Assembly (NCBI RefSeq): GCF_021298855.1
Contig: NZ_JAJTHI010000022.1
Span: 62,001 to 126,000, forward strand
Source of the DNA: Gemmatimonas sp.
GTDB taxonomy: Bacteria; Gemmatimonadota; Gemmatimonadetes; Gemmatimonadales; Gemmatimonadaceae
Length of the DNA stretch: 64,000 nt
Direction: 5' to 3'
In this document: positions 2,740-46,669 of the stretch, in pieces
Position numbering within the stretch: position 1 is the stretch's first letter
How the letters are laid out: every line of letters begins with the position of its first letter
Program-made: the position numbers and the translations under genes
The notes under the pieces: generated by a model
What the model was told of the DNA's origin: nothing
The model's input: only the letters and a program-made list of their open reading frames with translations
Databases searched by the model: none

Positions 2740-4984
2740 CACCGAGCGCGCGCCACTGTTCAACCAGCCGGACGAACTCGGCGCGATAGCCACCACGATC
2801 TTCCCCCAGCGCCGCGCGGGCCTGCTCCAGGACCTGCGCGGCGCTGCTGTTTCCCCGGTACTCGCTGTCGCGCAGCAGCATACCGAAGCTCGCCACCGCA
2901 GCAATGAACCGGGCATCGGTGCTCGGGCGTGCCGAGATTCGTGATGGCACGGCGTGCGACAGCAGCTGGCTCGACGCATTGCCGGGACGCTTGTAGCGCA
3001 GCTTCACGAAGAGCAGTTCGTCGCCAGCGGCGCCGCCGGCCCTCCGCATGGAAACGTCGGGTGTGACATAGCGCAGCGAGTCCACCGTACGCACGGGCAC
3101 GGTGCCTTGCACCCCCGCGGGCACGACCTCGTACAGCGCCGTCACCTGATGCCCGGTGCCAATATCACCGGCATCCTTGGCGTCGTCGTTGAAGTCTTCG
3201 GTGGCCAGCAGGCGGTTCTCGTACCCGATGAGCCGGTACGACTGCACCCGTGAGGGATTGAACTCCACCTGCAGCTTCACGTCGTTGGCCACCGTGAGCA
3301 GCGTGGCCCCCAGCTCTTCCACGAGCAGCTTGCGGGCTTCGGCCGGCGAGTCCACGTAACCGGAATTGCCGTTCCCCACCTTGGCCAGCTTTTCCATCTT
3401 CGCTGCCTGGTAGTTGCCCGTGCCGAAGCCGAGCACCGTGAGGTACGTGCCGTCGCGACGGTGCTGCTCGACGAGCCGCTCGAGCTCGGCGTCGCTGCTC
3501 ACCCCCACGTTGAAATCGCCGTCGGTGGCCAGGATCACCCGGTTGTTGCCACGCTCGAGGAAGTGCTCGCGTGCCGTGCGGTACGCCAGTTCGATGCCCG
3601 CCCCGCCTGCGGTGGATCCGCCGGCCTCGAGCCGATCGATGGCGTCGGCAATGCGCGCCTTCTCGTCGCCGCTGGTGCTGGGCAGCACCAGCCCCGCGGC
3701 GCCGGCATAGGCCACGATGGCCACGCGATCCTGCGGCCGCAGTTCGTTCACCAGCAGGCGCAACGACTGCTTCACGAGCGGCAGCTTGTTCCACTCGTTC
3801 ATCGAGCCGGACACGTCGACGAGGAAGACGAGATTGCTGGGGGGCAAACTGGCCGTGGCGATGCGCCGTGTCTGGAGCGTAATGCGCACCAGCCGGTGCT
3901 GCGGCTGCCACGGGGCCGTCATGACCTCGCTGCTGATGGCGACCGGATCGGCGCCGCGGGGCTCGGGCAGCTCGTACGGGAAGTAGTTGATGAGCTCCTC
4001 GATACGCACCGCGTCCCTGGGCGGGCGCTGTCCGCTCGAGAGGAAGCGGCGCACGTTCCCGTAGCTGGCGCGGTCCACGTCGATGGAGAAGGTGGAGAGC
4101 GGGTTCGTGCGCACGCCGAGGAACGGATTGTCCTCGATCCGGTCGTACTGCTCGCGATTGGCACGGGCCCCGGGGGCGCGTCCGTCGCCCCGCCGAGGTG
4201 GCGCCACGTCCGACGCCGGGGCGCTCGCCAGACGGCGGGCGGATGGGACGCCGGCACCGGCCATCGGGGGCGCGGGCGTCGGCGCCATGGGCATTGGCGC
4301 GGCCGCCACCCGGCTGGCCGCCGCCTCCGCCGTCCCCTGCTTGCCGGGGAACGCCGTGACTCCGCTGGTCATGCCGTCGTTCAGCGCCGTTGCCGACGAC
4401 GTGGTGCCAGGGCGCGGGGAAGCAACAGGGGCGGCGCCTCCGGATGCGGTCTCACCCGCAGGAACCGCTGCGGCTGGTACCACGGCCATCGGCGTGGTGG
4501 CGCCAGGTGCGGCCAGCGGCGGGGCCTCCGGCGTGACCGCAGGCGTGTCCGCAGGCGTGACCGCAGGCGCGGCCACTTTCCCGGCGCGTTCCGCCCCGCC
4601 TCTCCGTTCGGCATGCCGCAGCAGCATCGTCCCCCCGATCACCACAACCAGTCCGGCGGCCGCACGCCACCACCACTGCGGGCGCCAGCCGATCCCGCCG
4701 CCCTTGGCGATCGCGGCCCGCGCCTTCACCGCCGCGGGGAGCGCAGCCGGTGACGCGTCGAGCGCCCCCAGCACACGACTGCTGGCGGCCACCAGGCCAC
4801 GCGCTTCGGCCACCTGGGCCGCGCACACCACGCACTCGGCCACGTGCCGCTCCACCCACGCGGCTGCGGCGGCATCCATCGCCCCATCGAGCCAGGCGTG
4901 AATCGTACCGTCCTCCACATGACCGGCCTCGTCGAACACGGGCGACAGGCGCTCCTCGGGTACCACGAACCCATCAGGCAACAT
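2717..4984 (-). CDS. Zinc-finger anti-sigma domain fused to a YfbK-like VWA protein
   Basis: This 755-residue protein is read from a start overlapping the end of the upstream ECF sigma gene by 11 bp. Its N-terminal cytoplasmic part has an H47-x3-C51-x2-C54 zinc motif as in ZAS-type anti-sigma factors, then one membrane helix at about residues 108-122. A long Ala/Pro/Thr-rich linker follows, then a YfbK-type region with the conserved lead-in FSIDVDRASYGN, a von Willebrand A domain with the MIDAS motif DVSGSMN near residue 388, and the usual C-terminal extension. The topology puts the VWA domain outside the membrane, a plausible sensor for the sigma factor. The sigma-controlling role is inferred from the zinc motif and the gene order. 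Confidence 0.88.
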   Translation of the reverse strand: MLPDGFVVPEERLSPVFDEAGHVEDGTIHAWLDGAMDAAAAAWVERHVAECVVCAAQVAEARGLVAASSRVLGALDASPAALPAAVKARAAIAKGGGIGWRPQWWWRAAAGLVVVIGGTMLLRHAERRGGAERAGKVAAPAVTPADTPAVTPEAPPLAAPGATTPMAVVPAAAVPAGETASGGAAPVASPRPGTTSSATALNDGMTSGVTAFPGKQGTAEAAASRVAAAPMPMAPTPAPPMAGAGVPSARRLASAPASDVAPPRRGDGRAPGARANREQYDRIEDNPFLGVRTNPLSTFSIDVDRASYGNVRRFLSSGQRPPRDAVRIEELINYFPYELPEPRGADPVAISSEVMTAPWQPQHRLVRITLQTRRIATASLPPSNLVFLVDVSGSMNEWNKLPLVKQSLRLLVNELRPQDRVAIVAYAGAAGLVLPSTSGDEKARIADAIDRLEAGGSTAGGAGIELAYRTAREHFLERGNNRVILATDGDFNVGVSSDAELERLVEQHRRDGTYLTVLGFGTGNYQAAKMEKLAKVGNGNSGYVDSPAEARKLLVEELGATLLTVANDVKLQVEFNPSRVQSYRLIGYENRLLATEDFNDDAKDAGDIGTGHQVTALYEVVPAGVQGTVPVRTVDSLRYVTPDVSMRRAGGAAGDELLFVKLRYKRPGNASSQLLSHAVPSRISARPSTDARFIAAVASFGMLLRDSEYRGNSSAAQVLEQARAALGEDRGGYRAEFVRLVEQWRALGVTAGERR

Positions 4985-5531
4985 CAGACCCCTCCATCGC
5001 CGCGCGCACGCCGGACCGGGCGCGCTGCAGCGTCTCGTAGACTTCGACCAGACGACGTCGGGCCCGGGAGAGCGTGGTGCCCACGCTCCCCACGCTCAGC
5101 CCCAGCGCCGCCGCGATTTCGTGATAGTCCAGCCCCTCTTCACGCATGAGCAGCGCCATGCGGTCGCGCTCGGCCAGCGCATCCACCGCCTCACGCGCCA
5201 GCGCCTGCTCTCGCAGACGGGCGGCGGTGGCTTCGGCCGTCTGGTCGCTCTCCGTTGCCTCATCCGCCAACGGTCCTGCCGCGTTCAGCTCCTCCTGCAA
5301 CCGCACGAGGCGCAGGCGTTCCCGGGCATCGCGGCGCACTTCGTCGCGCAGCAGGTTGGTGGCCACGGCAAAGAGCCACGCGCGCTCCCGCGCCACCGGC
5401 CCCTGTCGCAGCGCCCGCACGAAGGTCTCCTGGGCCAGCTCCTCGGCGAGATCACGGTCGCCCAGGCGTCGCGTCAGATACCGGACGATGGGACCGTGAT
5501 ACTGCCGGAACAGTCGTTCGAGAGTGTCCAT
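4974..5531 (-). CDS. ECF-type RNA polymerase sigma factor
   Basis: The 185-residue product has the two ECF regions: sigma-2 near the N terminus (RYLTRRLGDRDLAEELAQ, then ETFVRAL) and sigma-4 at the C terminus (ERDRMALLMREEGLDYHEIA, then ALGLSVGSVGTTLSRARRRL). It should direct RNA polymerase to a stress or envelope regulon. The ATG at 5531 starts the typical MDTLERLFRQYHGPIVRYL N terminus; the open frame further upstream is not sigma-like. Its stop overlaps the start of the zinc-finger/VWA gene, the normal arrangement for a sigma and its anti-sigma. The leader has no Shine-Dalgarno sequence and is pyrimidine-rich. Confidence 0.93.
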   Translation of the reverse strand: MDTLERLFRQYHGPIVRYLTRRLGDRDLAEELAQETFVRALRQGPVARERAWLFAVATNLLRDEVRRDARERLRLVRLQEELNAAGPLADEATESDQTAEATAARLREQALAREAVDALAERDRMALLMREEGLDYHEIAAALGLSVGSVGTTLSRARRRLVEVYETLQRARSGVRAAMEGSDVA

Positions 5532-5672
5532 GATGGAAAAGGGTGGATGACAGGGTCGACCGGGGTACCCCCACGCCGTCACCCCGTAGGACGCCACCCA
5601 CCGCGGAACTTGCACACCGGCTGGCCCGGGGGGATCCTTCGGAGTCCTTCTTCTCTCCTCCCGCAACACCAC

Positions 5673-8198
5673 ATGGCTCGGAACATTCCTGTTGCAGCGC
5701 TCTGTCTGGCCGTTGGCGCCGGTGCCACCTGGGCCGGTATCGGCGGCATTGGCGAGGTGCCGCCCCTGGGGGCGCTGCTTTCCCCCGCGGTCGGTCTGTG
5801 GGCCAACACCACCAACGACCTCCCCGCCACCGCGTCGGCGAAGATCCCCGGGCTGACCGACGCCGTGGACATCCGCTACGACGCCCGCAGCGTGCCGCAC
5901 ATCTTCGCGGCCACGGAACTCGATGCGGTCCGCGCGCTGGGGTATGTCGTGGCGCGCGATCGGCTGTTTCAGCTGGAGCTGCAGTCGCGTGCCGGTGAGG
6001 GGACGCTCACGGAGCTGGTTGGCGATGTGGCGCTCATGGCGGATCAGGAGACGCGCCATCTCGGTATGCCGCGCGCGGCCGAGCAGCGCATGCGGGCGCT
6101 CGATACGAGCAGCATGCACTACCGCATCCTCGCGGCGTACGCCGACGGCATCAACACGTACCGCCGCTCGCTCTCCACGGCGCAGTGGCCCATGGAGTAC
6201 AAGCTGCTGCAGCGCCCCCCGCGGGAGTGGCTGCCGGTGCACTCCATGCACCTGCTCAACCGCATGGGCTACACGCTGGCGCACTCCCCCATCGAGCTGG
6301 ATCTGCTGCAGGCGCGTGCGCTCGTGGGGGACAGCGCCGCCCGGGCGTTCTGGGACAGCTCCTCGCCGGTGCAGGAGCCCATTCAGCCGGCTCCCCGCAG
6401 TGCGCCGCGCGAGGCCTTGAGCGCCGTACCGGCGCCGGGCGCCCCCGACACCGCGGCGCTGCGGCAGGTGGCGGCGTTGGGGCATGGCGCCGGTGCGCTG
6501 CGCTGGTCACGCGATGCCACGGTCGACCCCGAATCGCGCTTCGCGCTGCAGCAGGAGCGCGCGTTCGCCTCGAACAACTGGGCCGTCGCCCCAGGGCGCA
6601 GCGCGAGCGGGCGGGCGCTGCTCGCGGGTGATCCCCACCTCGAGCTGACGTTGCCCAGCATCTGGTTCGAGGTCCATCTCGTGGTGCCAGGGGTGATGGA
6701 TGTGGGCGGCGTCACCATTCCCGGTCTCCCCGGCGTGACCATCGGGTACACCCGCGCCCTGGCGTGGAGCTTCACCAACACCGGCGCCGACGTCATGGAC
6801 TTCTGGCGCGAAACGGTGGACAACGCCACGCGCCCCACCCGCTACCAGCTGGATGGCGCGTGGCAGCCACTCGAAGCGCGCGTGGAATCGTATCGGGACA
6901 AGGCGGGGCGTCTCGTGGCCACCGATACCGTGTACTACACGCACCGTGGCCCCATGCGAAAGCAGGGACGCGAGTGGCTGTCGATGCGGTGGACGGTCCT
7001 GGAGGCGGGCAATGAGCTCATGGGATTCTTCGCCGCCCTGCGCGCGCCGTCGGCGGCGGGATTCCTCGATTCGCTGGCCGTCTACTACACGGCCCCGGCG
7101 CAGAACATGATCGTGGCCGACACCGCGGGCACCATCGCCATCCGCTCCACCGGCAAGCACCCCATTCGGGCACGGCAGGGGCGAGGCACGGAGATTCTCG
7201 ACGGGAGCACACGCGCGAATGATTGGATCGGCTTCCGCACGGTCGCGCAGTATCCGCAGAGCCTCAACCCGGCCCAGGGATTCCTCGCGTCCGCCAACCA
7301 GGAGCCGGTCGATCCGCTGCTCGATTCGCTCTATCTCGGCACCGATGTGCACTACGAGATCTGGCGAGGGCTGCAGGTCAACCGCCTGCTGCGCGCCGAC
7401 AGCCGCGTGACCCCCGACAAGATGCGCCGGATGCACACCGACCCCGGCAGCGTCCGCGCCGAGCGCCTGGCTCCCGCCTTCGTGGCGGCGGCGGACGCGC
7501 GGCGACTGCAGGGCGATACGTCGCGCAGTCTCGCCGCCGCGGCGGCCATGCTGCGCGCCTGGGACATGCGCTACACCAAGGACAACACCGGAGCGCGGCT
7601 GTTCGAGACGGCCATGGGGCGAGCGGTGTCGTTGCTGTGGGACGAGTTCATTCCGCCGGGGGAGTCGGCACCGTCGGTGCGCCCGTCGGAGTCGCGCCTG
7701 CTGCAGCTGGTGCGCGACTCCGCGAGCGTCTGGTGGGATGATCGCCGCACGGCCAGCGTGCGCGAGGATCGCGATGCACTGCTCGCGCGCGCGCTCCGTG
7801 CGGCATACGACACGCTGCGGGCCGAGTTCGGTGATCCGGCACAGTCGCCGTGGACATGGGGCACGGTGGCGCCCGCACGGCCGCGGCACCTGCTGCGGCT
7901 CGATGGGTTCGCGGCGCCGCCTACGCCGATCGACGGGGGCCGCGGTACCCTCAATCCTTCGGTGGGCTCGGCGTACGCCAACTTCGGCGCCAGCTGGCGC
8001 ATGGTGGTGGAGCTCGACGGGACGCCGCGCATCCACGCGGTGTATCCGGGCGGGCAGAGTGGCAACCCGGCCAGCCCGCGGTACCTCGATCGCCTCGCGC
8101 TGTGGGGCAACGGGGCGCTCGACAGTGTCCGTACGCCGCGCACGGCATCCGAGCTGGCGGCGTCGGATGTGCGGGCCGTGCTCACGCTCACCCGCTGA
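5673..8198 (+). CDS. Penicillin-acylase-family amidohydrolase (Ntn hydrolase)
   Basis: The 841-residue precursor begins with a hydrophobic export signal, followed by the alpha-chain region with VARDRLFQLELQSRAGEGTL. The beta chain should start at Ser300 in the motif ASNNWAVAP, followed by LLAGDPHLEL, the hallmark of penicillin/cephalosporin and acyl-homoserine-lactone acylases. The serine becomes the N-terminal nucleophile after self-cleavage. Family members hydrolyse amide bonds of acylated substrates in the periplasm; the substrate here cannot be read from sequence. Two plausible uses are quorum-signal quenching and amide scavenging. The start follows a pyrimidine-rich leader without Shine-Dalgarno. 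It is divergent from the sigma gene and 11 bp upstream of a small membrane gene. Confidence 0.93.
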   Translation: MARNIPVAALCLAVGAGATWAGIGGIGEVPPLGALLSPAVGLWANTTNDLPATASAKIPGLTDAVDIRYDARSVPHIFAATELDAVRALGYVVARDRLFQLELQSRAGEGTLTELVGDVALMADQETRHLGMPRAAEQRMRALDTSSMHYRILAAYADGINTYRRSLSTAQWPMEYKLLQRPPREWLPVHSMHLLNRMGYTLAHSPIELDLLQARALVGDSAARAFWDSSSPVQEPIQPAPRSAPREALSAVPAPGAPDTAALRQVAALGHGAGALRWSRDATVDPESRFALQQERAFASNNWAVAPGRSASGRALLAGDPHLELTLPSIWFEVHLVVPGVMDVGGVTIPGLPGVTIGYTRALAWSFTNTGADVMDFWRETVDNATRPTRYQLDGAWQPLEARVESYRDKAGRLVATDTVYYTHRGPMRKQGREWLSMRWTVLEAGNELMGFFAALRAPSAAGFLDSLAVYYTAPAQNMIVADTAGTIAIRSTGKHPIRARQGRGTEILDGSTRANDWIGFRTVAQYPQSLNPAQGFLASANQEPVDPLLDSLYLGTDVHYEIWRGLQVNRLLRADSRVTPDKMRRMHTDPGSVRAERLAPAFVAAADARRLQGDTSRSLAAAAAMLRAWDMRYTKDNTGARLFETAMGRAVSLLWDEFIPPGESAPSVRPSESRLLQLVRDSASVWWDDRRTASVREDRDALLARALRAAYDTLRAEFGDPAQSPWTWGTVAPARPRHLLRLDGFAAPPTPIDGGRGTLNPSVGSAYANFGASWRMVVELDGTPRIHAVYPGGQSGNPASPRYLDRLALWGNGALDSVRTPRTASELAASDVRAVLTLTR

Positions 8199-8209
8199 GG
8201 AACCTGACC

Positions 8210-8560
8210 ATGTCCACGATCTTCGTGTTCCTCGCCGCGCTGCTGCTCCAACTTGCGGCGCAGGCCTTCGGCGGGGTGTGGGGAGCGGCAGCGGGCGGCC
8301 TCCTCATCGGTGTCGCGCTGCGCCGTGCGGGCGCGTTCCGTATCGGCTTCACGGCGGCCGCCGCGGCGGCGGCACTGCTGCTGGGATGGGTGGCGCTGCG
8401 CGGCGGCAACGTCATGGCGTTCGCCGCCATGCTCGGCGGCAACTTCAAGCTGCCGGAGTGGGGCGTTCTCGTTGCCACGTTCGCGCTTCCGGCGCTTCAG
8501 GCTGGGGGCCTTGCCGGCGGAACGTCGAGACTGCTGCGCAACGATCGCGCGAACGCCTGA
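8210..8560 (+). CDS. Small membrane protein of unknown function
   Basis: The 116-residue protein is strongly hydrophobic, with four probable membrane helices (roughly 3-20, 22-38, 44-62 and 75-100), ending in a short basic tail. It starts 11 bp after the acylase stop and is likely cotranslated with it. I recognise no family. Its stop codon lies at the very edge of the large inverted repeat that fills the next 600 bp, so the TGA and the preceding ACGCC are part of the left arm. Confidence 0.72.
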   Translation: MSTIFVFLAALLLQLAAQAFGGVWGAAAGGLLIGVALRRAGAFRIGFTAAAAAAALLLGWVALRGGNVMAFAAMLGGNFKLPEWGVLVATFALPALQAGGLAGGTSRLLRNDRANA

Positions 8561-9171
8561 CCAGCGGTCGGGGGTGGTCGTGGTCGGGGTACAGCCACCG
8601 CGGTCGGGGTACGGCCACGGCAGTCGGGGCCCTGCCACCGCGGTCGGGGCCTTACGAGCGGTCGGGGTCGTGGCCGGGCCCGGGGTGGGTCGGCGTTAGC
8701 GGGTCTCGGTCGGGGCGCAGCGGTATGGCAGCGCGGGGTGGGGTCGGGGTCTGGGGGCGCGCGGCGCTGCGCTGGCGCTGGGTCGGGGTCGACGGCGATA
8801 CGGCGGTCGTGGCTCCGGCCGCGGTCGGGGGGCGCGACGCTGCGCTGGCTTCGTCGGGGTTGGGGCCCCGACCCCGACCCGCGCGCAAAGCGCCGCGCCT
8901 CCAACCAGGACCCCGACTGCTTCACCGCAGTCGACCCCGACCAGCGCCAGCGCAGCGTCGCGCACCCCCGGACCCCAACCCCACCCCGCGCCGCCGTGCT
9001 GCTGCGCCCCGACCTCGACGCTGGCCCAGACCCACCCCGGGCCCGGCCGCGACCCCGACTGCTCGTAGGACCCCGACCGCAGTGGCAGGGCCCCGACTGC
9101 CGTGGCAGTACCCCGACCGCGGTGGCTGTACCCCGACCCCGACCACCCAAGACCGCAGGTCAGGCGTCGGT
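8553..9171. repeat. About 620-bp imperfect palindrome rich in GTCGGGG
   Basis: The two halves are reverse complements with scattered mismatches and small gaps, folding about GGGGCCCC at 8862-8869. Matching outer segments include ACGCCTGACC (8552 and, inverted, about 9162-9171) and GGTCGGGGTACAGCCACCGC (8582-8601 and, inverted, about 9117-9136). Inner arms match too, for example GGCCGGGCCCGGGGTGGGTC. The motif GTCGGGG or its complement occurs tens of times. The element lies exactly between two convergent genes. No gene is supported in it: open frames exist in many phases but only reflect base composition. See findings. Confidence 0.9.
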
Positions 9172-9173
9172 CG

Positions 9174-10124
9174 TCAGCGCAGTTCGCCCGCGAGTTCTTG
9201 CCACACCCGCCGAATGGCGATCGGTGCCTGCTGGTCGACCAGGAACCAGGTGGCGTACGGCCCCCATTGCGCCTGCTTCACCGCCGCATCGAAGGGCAGC
9301 CCCGCGGCGCGCAGGCGGGTGGCCTCGGCAATGACCGCCGTGATGGCATCGCGGAACGCGACGAGCTCCTCGCGCGAGCGCTTGGCCTTTTCGATGAACC
9401 CGTGCCCCGGCACGAAGCGCTTCACCCGCTCGAGCGCGAGCGCCGCGTCAATCGCGCGCGCCCATTCGGACGGATACGCACTGCGCATCGCCGGAAACAC
9501 GCGATTCAGGAACGCCTCACTCATGAACAGGATCTGTTCCCTGGGCAGATGCACCATGAGATCGCCGCCCGTGTGCGCGCGCCCCAGGAACCGCACGACG
9601 ACCTCCGTCGTGCCGAGGTCGATGGTCTGCGTGGTGCCCGTCATGGCCGTGGGCGGCACCACCACCGGGCGCGCGGCCGTCGCCGCCGCCGAGTCGCGCT
9701 TGAGCTGCGCCAGCGAGGTGGGATGCACCACCCACGTGATGCCGGCCGGCAGCACGTGGTTGCCCGCCGTGTGGTCGCCGTGATCGGAGCCCACCACGTA
9801 CCACTTGACCGGCAGCGGCGTGATCGTGCGGATGCGATCGAGCATCGTCTGCGTCGCCGCCGCCGATCCCTGCGCGTCGGCAATGAGCACGCCCTCCTTC
9901 CCGATCACGATGAGGCTCACCGTGGTGAAGCCCGGCTGGCGGATCTCCTCGTAGCCGTACACATGCTTCGAGAGCTTGACCAGTCGCGGGAACGCGCTGA
10001 GCGGAACGCCGCGCACTGCCGGATCGGCGGTACGGATCTGCGCCCGCGCCGCGGCGGGCACGGCCAGCGCGAGAAACAGCCAGGTGACGCCACGCAACGC
10101 GCGACGGAGCGGGGAAGTGGGCAT
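9174..10124 (-). CDS. Secreted metallo-beta-lactamase-fold protein with altered metal motif
   Basis: The 316-residue product has a signal peptide (RALRGVTWLFLALAVPAAARA) and an MBL fold. The metal motif reads GSDHGDHTAGN, where the usual HxHxDH has a serine in place of the first histidine; the later GRAHTGGD and VPGHG histidines are present. Relatives in this fold hydrolyse esters, lactones or lactams. Loss of one ligand may change the metal content or activity. The ATG at 10124 is preferred to the ATG at 10142 because a CATAAT hexamer ends exactly 7 nt upstream of it, the same geometry as other candidate leaderless genes here. It is divergent from the aquaporin gene. Confidence 0.85.
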   Translation of the reverse strand: MPTSPLRRALRGVTWLFLALAVPAAARAQIRTADPAVRGVPLSAFPRLVKLSKHVYGYEEIRQPGFTTVSLIVIGKEGVLIADAQGSAAATQTMLDRIRTITPLPVKWYVVGSDHGDHTAGNHVLPAGITWVVHPTSLAQLKRDSAAATAARPVVVPPTAMTGTTQTIDLGTTEVVVRFLGRAHTGGDLMVHLPREQILFMSEAFLNRVFPAMRSAYPSEWARAIDAALALERVKRFVPGHGFIEKAKRSREELVAFRDAITAVIAEATRLRAAGLPFDAAVKQAQWGPYATWFLVDQQAPIAIRRVWQELAGELR

Positions 10125-10130
10125 GTCACG

Positions 10131-10136
10131 ATTATG
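10131..10136 (-). promoter_or_regulatory. -10 hexamer CATAAT of the MBL gene, leaderless geometry
   Basis: On the minus strand CATAAT is followed by six bases and the ATG at 10124. The upstream ATG at 10142 would lie inside the promoter, which argues for the shorter protein. No convincing -35 was found. Confidence 0.5.
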
Positions 10137-10243
10137 CCTCACCGTGCGCCCACCGGCAAACCGCGGCTCGCGGGGCGGTGATCCGCAACGTACAATCCCG
10201 TCGGCACGAGCCCGCCTCCCTTCCTCCGTTCACCCGCGCCACC

Positions 10244-10972
10244 ATGCCTGCCACCGTTCTGGGCGAGTTCTTCGGCACCGTCATTCTCCTGCTGCTCGGC
10301 AACGGCGTCGTGGCCAACGTGTTGCTCACCGACGCCAAGGGACACGGGGGCGGGTGGATCGTGATCACCACCGGCTGGGCCTTCGCCGTGATGAGTGGCG
10401 GCATGGTCGCCGTGGCGCTCGGGGCGCCGGGCGAACTCAATCCCGCGGTGAGTCTCGCCAACGTGGTGACCGGCGTGTATCCGCTGGCCACCGGCCTGGC
10501 GCACGTGGGGGCGCAGATGCTGGGGGGCATCGTGGGCGCCACGCTCGTCTGGCTGCACTACCTGCCGCACTGGGCGCGCACGAACGATCCCGAACTCATC
10601 CGCGCCTGCTACTGCAACTCGCCGGCCGTCCGCAGCACGGGCCCCAATCTGGTGGCCGAGATCATCGGCACTGCGGTACTGGTCATTGTCGCCGGCGCCA
10701 TTGGCGCCAAGGGCGTGCTGGGCGCGTCACCGGCCACCAACCTTGGCAGCTTCCTCGTGGGCTGCCTGGTGTGGGGCATTGGCCTGTCGTTGGGCGGCCC
10801 CACCGGCTACGCCATCAATCCCGCGCGCGACCTGGGCCCGCGCATCGCGCACGCGCTGCTGCCGGTGGCCAACAAGGGCGGCAGCGACTGGGGCTACGCC
10901 TGGATTCCCGTGGTGGGGCCCATCGTGGGCGCGACGCTCGCCGCGGGGCTCTGGAAGTCCCTCACGGCCTGA
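10244..10972 (+). CDS. Aquaglyceroporin / glycerol uptake facilitator
   Basis: The 242-residue protein has six membrane helices and the two NPA half-helix boxes of the MIP family: ELNPAVSLANV in the first half and AINPARDLGPR in the second. The aspartate after the second NPAR box is typical of glycerol-conducting GlpF-type channels rather than strict water channels. It would allow passive flow of glycerol and small polyols across the inner membrane. No glycerol kinase is adjacent. The ATG at 10244 directly starts the first helix; its leader is pyrimidine-rich without a Shine-Dalgarno sequence. Confidence 0.93.
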   Translation: MPATVLGEFFGTVILLLLGNGVVANVLLTDAKGHGGGWIVITTGWAFAVMSGGMVAVALGAPGELNPAVSLANVVTGVYPLATGLAHVGAQMLGGIVGATLVWLHYLPHWARTNDPELIRACYCNSPAVRSTGPNLVAEIIGTAVLVIVAGAIGAKGVLGASPATNLGSFLVGCLVWGIGLSLGGPTGYAINPARDLGPRIAHALLPVANKGGSDWGYAWIPVVGPIVGATLAAGLWKSLTA

Positions 10973-24751: not shown

Positions 24752-24777
24752 TCATCGGCGCTGTCGCATTGCCATGA

Positions 24778-24809
24778 GGGCCGCCACGCATCGCGTGGCG
24801 GCCCTTTGT
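24778..24809 (+). terminator. Rho-independent terminator after the ferredoxin gene
   Basis: A perfect 12-bp stem GGGCCGCCACGC / GCGTGGCGGCCC with a 3-nt loop (ATC) is followed by TTTGTTTGT. It is the clearest intrinsic terminator in the window. Confidence 0.92.
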
Positions 24810-24813
24810 TTGT

Positions 24814-24921
24814 ATCCTGCTGCCTGCGTCCTGCTGCCTGCGTCCTGCTCCCTCCTGGAGCCGCGAAAAGGACGCAGGGGGCAGGACGCAGGGAGCAGGG
24901 AGCAGGGAGCAGGAAGGAGGC
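24814..24921. repeat. Inverted repeat of CCTGCGTCCTGCT / AGCAGGACGCAGG units
   Basis: The left part repeats GCCTGCGTCCTGCT-like units and the right part their complements (GGACGCAGGG, then GGGAGCAGGGAGCAGG), folding about GAGCCGCGAAAAGG. It lies between convergent ferredoxin and methyltransferase genes. Related G/A-rich units occur near 29711 and 31990. Confidence 0.85.
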
Positions 24922-24926
24922 AACGG

Positions 24927-29671: not shown

Positions 29672-29710
29672 ATGCTGCCAGCCTCGCCCGGTGGGGGCTG
29701 GGCGAACGGG

Positions 29711-29835
29711 CAACGAGCAGGGAGCAGGGTGGGACATGACAAAGACCCGGAGCGCACCGCGCCCGGGTCTTTCCTTTTCCCCATATGCTTCTCCCTGCCT
29801 CCTGCTTCCCGCTCCCTGCCTCCCTGAGGAAGCAG
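29711..29835. repeat. GCAGGGAG-family inverted repeat around the terminator
   Basis: GAGCAGGGAGCAGGG near 29715 and complementary CTCCCTGCCTCCTGCTTCC near 29791 flank the terminator stem. The unit is the same as at 24.8-24.9 kb. Confidence 0.75.
29741..29772. terminator. Bidirectional-type terminator after the LspA-like gene
   Basis: AAAGACCCGG (29741-29750) and CCGGGTCTTT (29763-29772) form a 10-bp perfect stem with a 12-nt loop, followed by CCTTTTCC. It sits between convergent genes and is flanked by GAGCAGGGAGCAGGG and CTCCCTGCCTCC-type repeats. Confidence 0.88.
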
Positions 29836-29868
29836 TCCCGCCGTCCATCACCGGACGGCGATGCCCAC

Positions 29869-33570: not shown

Positions 33571-34899
33571 ATGGGTGGCATGAGGGAGACGGGCGGCACG
33601 ACCTCTCGGCGGCATACCGCCCCGCTGCTGGCGGTGCTGGCGGCCACGGGGCTCGTGACCGGGGTGCTCGATGCGCAGACGCCGGTGAGCAGCCGCACGC
33701 GCGCCACCGTCAGGCGGGTGGCCCCGGGACCGCTCACCAGCACCAACGTCTGCACCGAACTCGAATCGTCACCGTCGCCGCTGGTGCACGCGCCCGAGGG
33801 GTTGGCGCTGCTGCGCCTCAAGCGCCAGCTGGAGAGTGCGGCGCTCACGCTCGAGCAGCAGCAGCAGCTCGAACGCGACCAGCTGCAGCGCATTGCGCAG
33901 GTGCGGCGCGGTATGGATTCGCTCATGCAGGTGGTGGTGCGCTTCACGCGTGACGAAAATGCCGAGCGGGTGGAACGTGCGCCCGTCTACGCGCCGCCGG
34001 TGACCGGGCGGCGCATGTTCGTCACGGTGGACAGCGGGAATGGTCCGGTGACGATCGACATGGAGGCGATGATGCGCGGCGTTGCGCCCCTGGTGCGTCG
34101 GGCGGTCGACAGCACGTTCGTGCTGATCGCGCCCCAGGTCAATCGCGTCATCCGCGCGCTGCAGCCGCAGGTGGCGGCGTTCGCCGGTGAGGCGGAAGCG
34201 GCACTGCCGGGGGCGCTGGTGGCGCCGTCGGGGTACATGGGCCTGTCGTTGAGCGGTGCACAGATCCGCATCGTCACACCCGACGGCGTGATGACGAGTC
34301 ACTGCGAGTACCCGCTCGTCGAGACGGTCGATGTGGGTTCACCGGCGGCGCGGGCCGGCCTGTCCGCCGGGGACACGCTGGTGGCGTACAACGGGCGCGA
34401 CGTGATGCAGGCGGCGGTGAACTACGCGGAGCTCATCACCGCCGGCAGCACGGTAAAGGTGCGGGTGCGCCGTGCCGGCAAGCCGCGTGAGGTGCCGGTG
34501 CAGGTGGACGCGCGCCGCGACGAAAGCGCCGCCGCGCCGGTGCGCCTCCTGCTGCGGGGGACCCCCGATCGGTCGGCGCCGTTTCCGCCGCAGCTGTCGC
34601 TCCAGATGTTCAGCCCCAACGGGGTGGCCGTACTCGCCGGGGCGCAGTTCGCCACCATGGACGCCGACTTCGCGCAGAGTCTCGGGCTCGAGCCCGGCGT
34701 GCTGGTCCTGCGTGTGCCCGCCGGCACCCCGGCGGCCGACGCCGGACTCAAGGCTGGTGACGTCGTGCGCACGGTGAACGGCCTGGCGGTGCGCGACGTG
34801 AACGTGCTGCGGCGCGTCATGCAGGGGGCACGCGACGCGCGCCTGCAGGTGCAGGCACGTGGGGCGGCGCCGAGGGTGGTGACGATAGGCGGGCGGTAA
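33571..34899 (+). CDS. Periplasmic protein with two PDZ domains
   Basis: The 442-residue product has a signal peptide ending near DAQ (residue 36), a long coiled-coil-like part (LESAALTLEQQQQLERDQLQ), and two PDZ domains: one around residues 215-310 (SPAARAGLSAGDTLVAYNG) and one around 345-440 (TPAADAGLKAGDVVRTVNG). No protease domain is present. It starts 3 bp after the anti-sigma gene and may bind misfolded or cleaved envelope proteins as the signal input to the sigma pair; that role is inferred. Confidence 0.88.
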   Translation: MGGMRETGGTTSRRHTAPLLAVLAATGLVTGVLDAQTPVSSRTRATVRRVAPGPLTSTNVCTELESSPSPLVHAPEGLALLRLKRQLESAALTLEQQQQLERDQLQRIAQVRRGMDSLMQVVVRFTRDENAERVERAPVYAPPVTGRRMFVTVDSGNGPVTIDMEAMMRGVAPLVRRAVDSTFVLIAPQVNRVIRALQPQVAAFAGEAEAALPGALVAPSGYMGLSLSGAQIRIVTPDGVMTSHCEYPLVETVDVGSPAARAGLSAGDTLVAYNGRDVMQAAVNYAELITAGSTVKVRVRRAGKPREVPVQVDARRDESAAAPVRLLLRGTPDRSAPFPPQLSLQMFSPNGVAVLAGAQFATMDADFAQSLGLEPGVLVLRVPAGTPAADAGLKAGDVVRTVNGLAVRDVNVLRRVMQGARDARLQVQARGAAPRVVTIGGR

Positions 34900-34902
34900 C
34901 GG

Positions 34903-35126
34903 CGGTCGGGGTCTACTGCAGACGGGAGACGGCAGGAACCACAGTGGGCAGACGGCAGGGATGCGGAAGAACAACACGGCGGCGTGCGCTGCGCGCCGCC
35001 GCCGATGTCCCAACCGCAAAGGAAATCGGGCGCCCTGCGAAGCAGTGGCGCCCGTTTTGTTCGACCACATCCCTGCGGCCTGCACACTGTGGTTCCTGCC
35101 GTCTCCCGTCTGCGGTCGACCCCGAC
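34903..35126. repeat. Convergent-gap repeat element, copy A
   Basis: Outer arms of about 45 bp are inverted repeats (GACGGGAGACGGCAGGAACC near 34922 and its complement near 35091). Inside are a GC hairpin GGCGGCGTGCGC...GCGCCGCCGCC, the linker ACCGCAAAGGAAATC, and a second hairpin GGGCGCC...GGCGCCC. The same order is found, inverted, at 46451-46648. Located between the convergent PDZ and matrixin genes. No protein-coding signal. Confidence 0.9.
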
Positions 35127-35143
35127 TGCCGGCCCGCCCCCGG

Positions 35144-41829: not shown

Positions 41830-41894
41830 GAGCCAAGGAAACTACGCGGGGGACCACGCGCGATCGACGACGCATTGGCGACCACGCGCTGGCG

Positions 41895-42217
41895 GAAACG
41901 CGTTGGCGGGGACGCGTTGGCACCAACGCGGAACAGCGTGGGCGCCAACGTGACACACGGACGTCCGGCAACTACGCGGGTCGGGGTCGGGGTCGGGGTC
42001 GGGGGGCGGCTGCGCCGGCGTCGTTGCCGGCGTCGGTGCCGGCGTCGGTGTCCGCGTCGGTGTCCGCGTCGGTGCCGGCGTCGGTGCCGGCGTCGGTGTC
42101 CGCGTCGGTGCCAACGCGTCGGTGCCAACGCGTCCCCGCCAACGCGTCCCCGCCAACGCGTCCCCGATCGCGCGTTCCTCCGCGCGTTCCTCCGCGCGTT
42201 CCTCCGCGCGTTCCTCC
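41895..42217. repeat. Tandem and inverted repeats in the patatin/PepSY spacer
   Basis: Within the 501-bp spacer: TCGGGG four times from about 41980; eight 12-bp units of GCCGGCGTCGGT or GTCCGCGTCGGT (42014-42109); four 14-bp units based on GCCAACGCGTCCCC (42110-42165); and four 12-bp units of GCGTTCCTCCGC (42170-42217). An inverted copy of the 14-bp unit lies at 41899-41923, so the stretch can fold. No gene is supported here. The unit AACGCGTCC also recurs inside the PepSY gene. Confidence 0.9.
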
Positions 42218-42263
42218 GCGCATCGTCCCCTCGTCGCCCCTGCGTCTCCCCGTCCAATCCCGA

Positions 42264-42321
42264 TTGACGCGGTCGGCAATTCCCCTTATCCTCCGGTATA
42301 CGTTTCTGAGAACCATTCTCA
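42264..42321 (+). promoter_or_regulatory. Promoter and Fur-box-like site of the PepSY gene
   Basis: TTGACG (42264-42269), a 17-nt spacer and TATCCT (42287-42292) form the promoter. Downstream, TGAGAACCATTCTCA (42307-42321) is a palindrome (TGAGAA-N3-TTCTCA) much like Fur binding sites, placed 10 bp before the ATG. Repression by iron-loaded Fur is the likely control. Confidence 0.75.
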
Positions 42322-42330
42322 TCTAGGGTC

Positions 42331-46414: not shown

Positions 46415-46450
46415 GGGGAGTGTGGCGAGGGCCGTGCGTGCGACACACAG

Positions 46451-46648
46451 CAGACGGCAGACGGCAGGAACTACAGCACGCAGTACGGCAGGCATGTGGT
46501 ACAACACAACGGGCGCCACCGCTTCGCGGGGCGCCCGATTTCCTTTGCGGTAGGGATATCGGCGGCAGCGCGTGGCGCACGCCGCCGTGTTGTTCTTCCG
46601 AATCCCTGCCCAACTGCGTGCTGTAGTTCCTGCCGTCTGCCGTCTGCG
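46451..46648. repeat. Convergent-gap repeat element, copy B (inverted to copy A)
   Basis: Read on the minus strand this matches copy A (34903-35126) in the same order: arm, GCGGAAGAACAACACGGCGG hairpin, ACCGCAAAGGAAATC linker, GGGCGCC hairpin, arm. The central 115 bases look close to 90% identical by eye. It is between the convergent PP2C and phosphoglucomutase genes. Confidence 0.9.
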
Positions 46649-46669
46649 TGTGGTCGCCCACACCACCTG

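Follow-up and report, generated by a model that had tools for sequence, protein, structure and literature searches.

A long GTCGGGG palindrome between convergent genes in Gemmatimonas is one copy of an extragenic repeat family with mirrored arm evolution

Several described systems come close to the element reported here. REPs are 20–40 bp long, carry GTAG or CGTC tags, and are linked to RAYT (PMC3733652), and the MITE-like palindromic repeats ERIC and YPAL measure 127 bp and about 170 bp, respectively (PMC2267715, PMC2229807). Inverted repeats are also known at 3' ends in E. coli (PMC6060812), and template switching has been documented to make and keep hairpins (PMC8794818). For Gemmatimonadota, a chromosome paper reported 86 repeats outside the strand-biased region in G. 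phototrophica, in a text that mentions no palindromes, convergent genes, or terminators (PMC11237797). No description of such a Gemmatimonas palindrome was found in the papers searched. A first-pass annotation, made from the sequence alone, had known no named element like it; in kind the element resembles REP and ERIC repeats.

The window, meaning the whole stretch of 64,000 nucleotides that was analyzed, contains a palindrome at 8553–9167. Self-alignment of this region matched 85% of columns with a score of 712, compared to 54 for the best of 100 dinucleotide shuffles and a maximum of 63 when the halves were shuffled apart. Based on these controls, chance symmetry of GGGG runs was rejected. 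Mechanical repeat finding returned two inverted repeats, I1 at 8553–8701/9019–9167 (149 nt, 91% complementary) and I2 at 8703–8781/8941–9019 (79 nt, 87%). The palindrome fills the gap between a plus-strand gene for a 116-aa protein without a Pfam match (8210–8560), which ends within the left arm, and a minus-strand gene for a metallo-beta-lactamase-like protein (9174–10124), whose weak Pfam match lies just under the curated cut-off.

Each outer arm consists of three 20-bp units of the form GTCGGGGTACNGCCACNGCG. The left units and a last GTCGGGG are located at 8583–8649 on the plus strand (direct-repeat family D3), and their mirror is located at 9071–9137 on the minus strand (direct-repeat family D1). 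The inner left arm (8650–8781) pairs with the inner right arm (8941–9070) through I1 and I2. The outermost 10 bp, ACGCCTGACC at 8553–8562, are mirrored as GGTCAGGCGT at 9158–9167. The left copy includes the end of the upstream gene with its stop codon (8558–8560), and the right copy lies 6 nt outside the stop codon of the minus-strand gene (9174–9176). The outer arms mirror each other around an axis near 8860, with GGGGCCCC at 8862–8869, and the symmetry of the centre (about 8782–8940) is far below that of the outer 230 nt of each arm.

The long imperfect palindrome, its GTCGGGG-built arms, and the convergent flanking genes were all correctly recognized in the first-pass annotation. The symmetry that it read across nearly the whole length applies to the outer 230 nt of each arm and is much weaker in the centre. 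The motif that it placed beside each stop codon is mirrored on both sides as described, except that on the left it contains the stop. The dispersed family, the other palindrome families in the same niche, and a restriction-modification cassette between the arms in a relative had been overlooked.

When the whole element was folded as single-stranded RNA, it formed one giant hairpin of −628 kcal/mol, compared to −364 ± 5.6 kcal/mol for shuffles (z = −48). A single half folded no better than its own shuffles (z = −1.4). No U-tract terminator was present at 8200–9500 around the window copy. Rfam 15 gave no match at or above the gathering score in the window, and its one sub-threshold hit in the element was at chance level.

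The element belongs to a dispersed family. The 4.09-Mb source genome (G000, 91 contigs) contains more family arms with 72–84% identity, mostly located at contig ends, where dispersed copies or a fold-back centre would be expected to stop the assembler. The other copies in this genome match mainly from query position 10–14 onward. Among the 40 relatives searched, strong matches were found only within the genus (G015, G005, G008, and G017), and weak matches only were obtained in G001, G004, G022, and a few order-level relatives. An exact-motif scan of the genomes of 84,980 species returned only Gemmatimonas-related MAGs (UKL202c, RE-15aug16-119, C8_MAG_00034, and CoA2_M2). A pair of DNA uptake sequences was rejected as an explanation, since paired GGTCGGGG occurs at only 27 places in 4.09 Mb.

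An assembly artefact was rejected because G015, assembled separately, carries both arms between the same two genes. A fold-back read was rejected as well because the arms differ by 9–15%, and the artefact reading is further weakened by UKL202c (G005), which has many copies within long contigs.

Sequences related to the GTCGGGG arms were observed in other arrangements. Long (GTCGGG)n runs lie within or replace the palindrome centre at L073, L080, L082, and L075:8469-8734, which suggests slippage expansion. At 41830–42330 of the window, the gap between divergent genes is made up of repeated ACGCGTTGGC- and GCCAACGCGT-type units and a (GTCGGG)n run and is imperfectly palindromic; a 1-kb relative of this gap is present at G000:C31:225828-227123. 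In G042, palindromes at C1:211080-211415 and 219510-219864 have (CAGTTCTGGACTGCCACTG)n arms around two hairpins, one of which ends in GCGCATTCCTTT. These arms resemble the 20-bp GTCGGGG units and may represent a divergent branch of the family.

A second palindrome family with GCAGACGGCAG arms occupies two other convergent junctions of the window, at 34888–35140 and 46434–46663, and about 40 or more loci in the source genome. Half of the inspected copies (11/22) were in convergent gaps and none (0/22) in divergent gaps. The second family mostly starts 17–54 nt from a stop codon, and in tandem gaps the next gene is located 34 to 748 nt away. Double changes (C-G to G-C and G-C to A-T) preserve pairing in its two core hairpins, where most stem pairs are rarely or never violated, and a T-rich tract, ATTTCCTTT, comes after the first hairpin. 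The hairpin and U-tract of an intrinsic terminator are thus both present in the second-family core, and the window copy lacks this combination. Because the core hairpins covary and the T-rich tract follows, the second family looks, by its sequence, like mirrored arms placed around a terminator core.

To relate palindromes to gene orientation, all intergenic gaps of five Gemmatimonas genomes (about 2.06 Mb) were scored for self-complementarity, with at least 80 nt and a self-score of at least 70 as the palindrome cut-off. Palindromes were present in 33/179 convergent, 41/637 tandem, and 7/276 divergent gaps; genes were called with a simple home-made codon-usage script that can miss small genes, and some divergent or tandem assignments of very long gaps may therefore be wrong. 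The odds ratio for convergent gaps versus the others was 4.1 (p = 4e-8). G020 was the clearest genome, with palindromes in 7/38 convergent, 2/131 tandem, and 0/53 divergent gaps. The palindrome covers a median 93% of the convergent gap, and its first half is purine-rich in 30 of 33 cases. In a 200-kb sample of E. coli K-12 analyzed for comparison, none of the 19 convergent gaps contained a palindrome. These dispersed copies and the convergent-gap excess agree with an early prediction from the window alone of many genomic copies at convergent junctions.

The palindrome families differ in sequence, and every surveyed genome has its own. A strict terminator survey found a stem with a T-run in only a minority of convergent gaps and did not discriminate. 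Ordinary terminator hairpins were observed beside or inside inverted GCAGGGA / GCAGGAC-type arrays in two convergent gaps of the window (24752–24926 and 29672–29868). G005 contains head-to-tail arrays of more than 1 kb of a palindromic CTGCCGTCTG...CGGCGCG unit at L198 (G005:C1:6941-8111) and L202 (G005:C1:97274-98749), and single units of this family at several gene ends.

The same junctions were then compared in relatives. The right-hand gene is present in 29 of 30 genus genomes. At the window junction, nine species (G023, G013, G024, G019, G041, G014, G016, G045, and G043) have a gap of 11–38 nt and no palindrome. In G008 and G017, the palindrome measures 120 nt and belongs to a different family; G042, G012, and G021 have yet other palindromes, and an ordinary hairpin occurs in G011. 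Searching with joined flanks was informative at two other loci. At one, convergent stop codons overlap by 4 nt in G042, G005 has a 320-nt GTCGGGG palindrome, and G008 has an insert of similar size at that site. At the second, G042 has one two-way terminator and G005 has two terminators that flank the palindrome. Relatives therefore include both filled and empty sites, a feature shared with MITEs of the ERIC/YPAL type. Since many relatives have short gaps, gain is more likely than loss; the palindromes appear to have been gained at existing junctions and not always to be needed for termination.

The empty sites also bear on a reading without function. Without any selected role, the palindromes could originate, grow longer, and spread through template switching, slippage, or some unknown mobilisation, and persist only where they are harmless, in convergent gaps and after stop codons, which hold no promoters or start sites. 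The nine window junctions without a palindrome and the G005 copy that is redundant beside ordinary terminators are consistent with this, as are the missing U-tract of the window copy, the frequency of unmirrored single-arm changes, and the copies in tandem gaps. However, the distance of the second family from the stop codon is nearly constant even where the next gene is 748 nt off, and its covarying core hairpins precede a T-rich tract. Accumulation without any function is possible in our judgement, though doubtful.

Neither a transposase nor a target-site duplication could be linked to the family; a check for target-site duplication at the L078 site showed only TAGC/TACC shared at the ends. 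A RAYT-mobilised REP was rejected, because each of eight genomes has one Y1_Tnp gene and the sides of these genes carry no GTCGGGG palindromes. These single RAYT-like genes (L288-L295) are flanked by other hairpins, and the GGGGTCAGAGTCGTT hairpins near several of them look, from their sequence, like the REPs of the Y1_Tnp transposase.

In G015, where the protein at the window junction is 97% identical, the palindrome is present as two half-palindromes about 7 kb apart. Between the halves are genes for a 1051-aa ResIII protein, a DUF3800 protein, and an 892-aa type III DNA methyltransferase. This type III restriction-modification cassette (Res-like, DUF3800, and Mod) at L107 (G015:C1:160500-174500), 3627-10376, lies exactly between the half-palindromes. 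Either it entered the palindrome centre or it was lost from G000.

The cassette at this orthologous locus and the regularity of the 20-bp units would suit an element that acts as DNA. It could be bound by a chromosome-organising protein, form a supercoil-absorbing cruciform or a G-quadruplex array, or receive accessory genes as an insertion target. Supercoils driven by transcription run into each other in convergent gaps, which also counts for this reading. However, only one clear cargo case was found, and families of wholly different sequence in one niche argue against a single sequence-specific binder. The G-quadruplex array, suggested in the first-pass annotation, is weak, with three G4-type motifs on the two strands of a 619-nt stretch. 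We consider a DNA-level role of this kind extremely unlikely.

The outer arms matched their own partner best in 33 GTCGGGG copies (z = 8.3) and 21 second-family copies (z = 5.0), in a test that favours true pairs somewhat since element limits were taken from self-alignment. A rank test with 62-nt second-family arms was weak because the inner part of this family differs by side, and the shorter outer arms gave the signal. At the window locus, comparison of G000 with G015 showed 12 columns changed in both arms, 4 changed by side, and 1 crossed. Among orthologous loci of G005, G008, and G017, some had 16–18 side columns and at most one mirrored column, and others had mirrored-to-side ratios of 8 to 2 or 3, 6 to 1, and 5 to 1. 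The mirrored pattern is thus episodic across orthologous loci. The mirrored changes and the best matching of own partners support gene conversion between arms, one of the explanations offered at the outset.

The outermost ten bases, ACGCCTGACC, are mirrored in both G000 and G015 and lie outside the part that the other family copies have in common, as expected if copying overran the end of the family. Mirroring past the family end was also clear in a few second-family copies (scores of 34, 22, and 18) and was not significant overall (p = 0.06). The G015 arms are 93% identical although they are now 7 kb apart. This leaves either a recent insert or an added contribution from ordinary recombination, which the identity may require besides template switching.

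Mirrored arms could alternatively result from direct selection on RNA, if the transcribed arms pair with each other and compensatory changes keep every base pair of the helix as a terminator, an RNase III site, or an mRNA stabiliser. The position of the elements at 3' ends, a hairpin far more stable than shuffles, and the double changes that keep pairing in the second-family core are consistent with this. The RNA hairpin suggested in the first-pass annotation would indeed form; however, the arm mismatches show no G-U preference, with 142 G-U and 162 A-C in tandem copies. Since the pair that RNA tolerates is not preferred, selection along the arms does not act on RNA pairing. Furthermore, some loci show bursts of mirrored changes and others show none, and the G015 arms have remained alike with about 7 kb of genes between them. 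Direct RNA selection is disfavoured, and we regard it as very unlikely. The sequence comparisons point to episodic DNA-level copying from arm to arm, by template switching or gene conversion, rather than to steady selection for RNA pairing, and occasional hairpin template switching or gene conversion is the best account of the mirrored arms.

Overall, the element is probably a repeat of the REP/ERIC kind whose arms are copied from one to the other and which probably functions as a two-way barrier. It is one member of a lineage-specific family of long palindromic repeats that are non-coding and intergenic, with tandem-unit arms facing each other as halves, and would act like a very long REP/BIME- or ERIC-type repeat. 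Copies lie just 3' of stop codons, most readily in convergent gaps, which they typically fill, and have probably spread to these sites. Occasional DNA-level copying, by hairpin template switching or gene conversion, probably keeps the arms alike. Both genes run off into such a gap, where either transcript would form a very stable hairpin. The most likely consequence would be that transcription is ended or insulated from both sides. From position and hairpin stability, a two-way barrier to run-off transcription, one of the roles proposed in the first-pass annotation, is plausible. Since the window copy has no U-tract, any barrier effect would have to come from structure, RNase III, or Rho. Because the copy at the L074 site is redundant and many relatives have none, the element is at most helpful and not required.

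More tentatively, the palindromes could be genus-wide convertible two-way gene-end elements, a reading to which we give limited credence. Convergent junctions would take up long palindromes from any of several lineage-specific families, arm copying would equalise both 3' ends, and the centre could take accessory cassettes. If true, one copying event would rewrite the ends of two transcripts together, and the centre could take in, for example, restriction-modification systems.

Long palindromes are usually unstable in bacteria. Gemmatimonas genomes keep many of them in one defined niche, with halves alike, and in the source assembly they coincide with contig ends. One gene pair is found without a palindrome, with unrelated palindromes, and with corrected or uncorrected arms, which provides a natural experiment. 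With this set, a role of template switching in maintaining bacterial 3'-end hairpins, and of such repeats in setting transcript ends, can be tested.

Compared to known systems, the Gemmatimonas palindromes are similar to REPs and BIMEs, which are palindromic, extragenic, and multi-copy, lie mostly 3' of genes or between convergent or same-direction genes, and often form inverted pairs (PMC3733652). The elements described here are likewise palindromic, extragenic, multi-copy, and near gene 3' ends. However, they are 80 to over 600 nt long and have tandem-unit arms, and the window copy has 615 bp with 20-bp GTCGGGG units. ERIC and YPAL, compared by their descriptions, are closer in size than REPs, and they share a long single stem-loop, an intergenic, dispersed, and genus-specific occurrence, and predicted folding once transcribed (PMC2267715). 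They differ in that, here, unrelated families occupy the same type of site, arms are made of tandem units, and signs of copying between the arms can be seen.

Bidirectional intrinsic terminators also lie at facing 3' ends, and the second-family core hairpin followed by a T-rich tract resembles them (PMC6060812). However, the Gemmatimonas palindromes are roughly ten times as long, a U-tract is missing from the window copy, and true terminators make a sister copy redundant. Quasipalindrome correction equalises imperfect arms in one event, which leaves mirrored multi-base changes and extended arm identity (PMC8794818, PMC7202029), as in the arms described here; the difference is that here it is inferred for a dispersed family of bacterial repeats, with arms that reach about 300 bp. 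We place the element as a variant in a known class, the long palindromic extragenic repeats.
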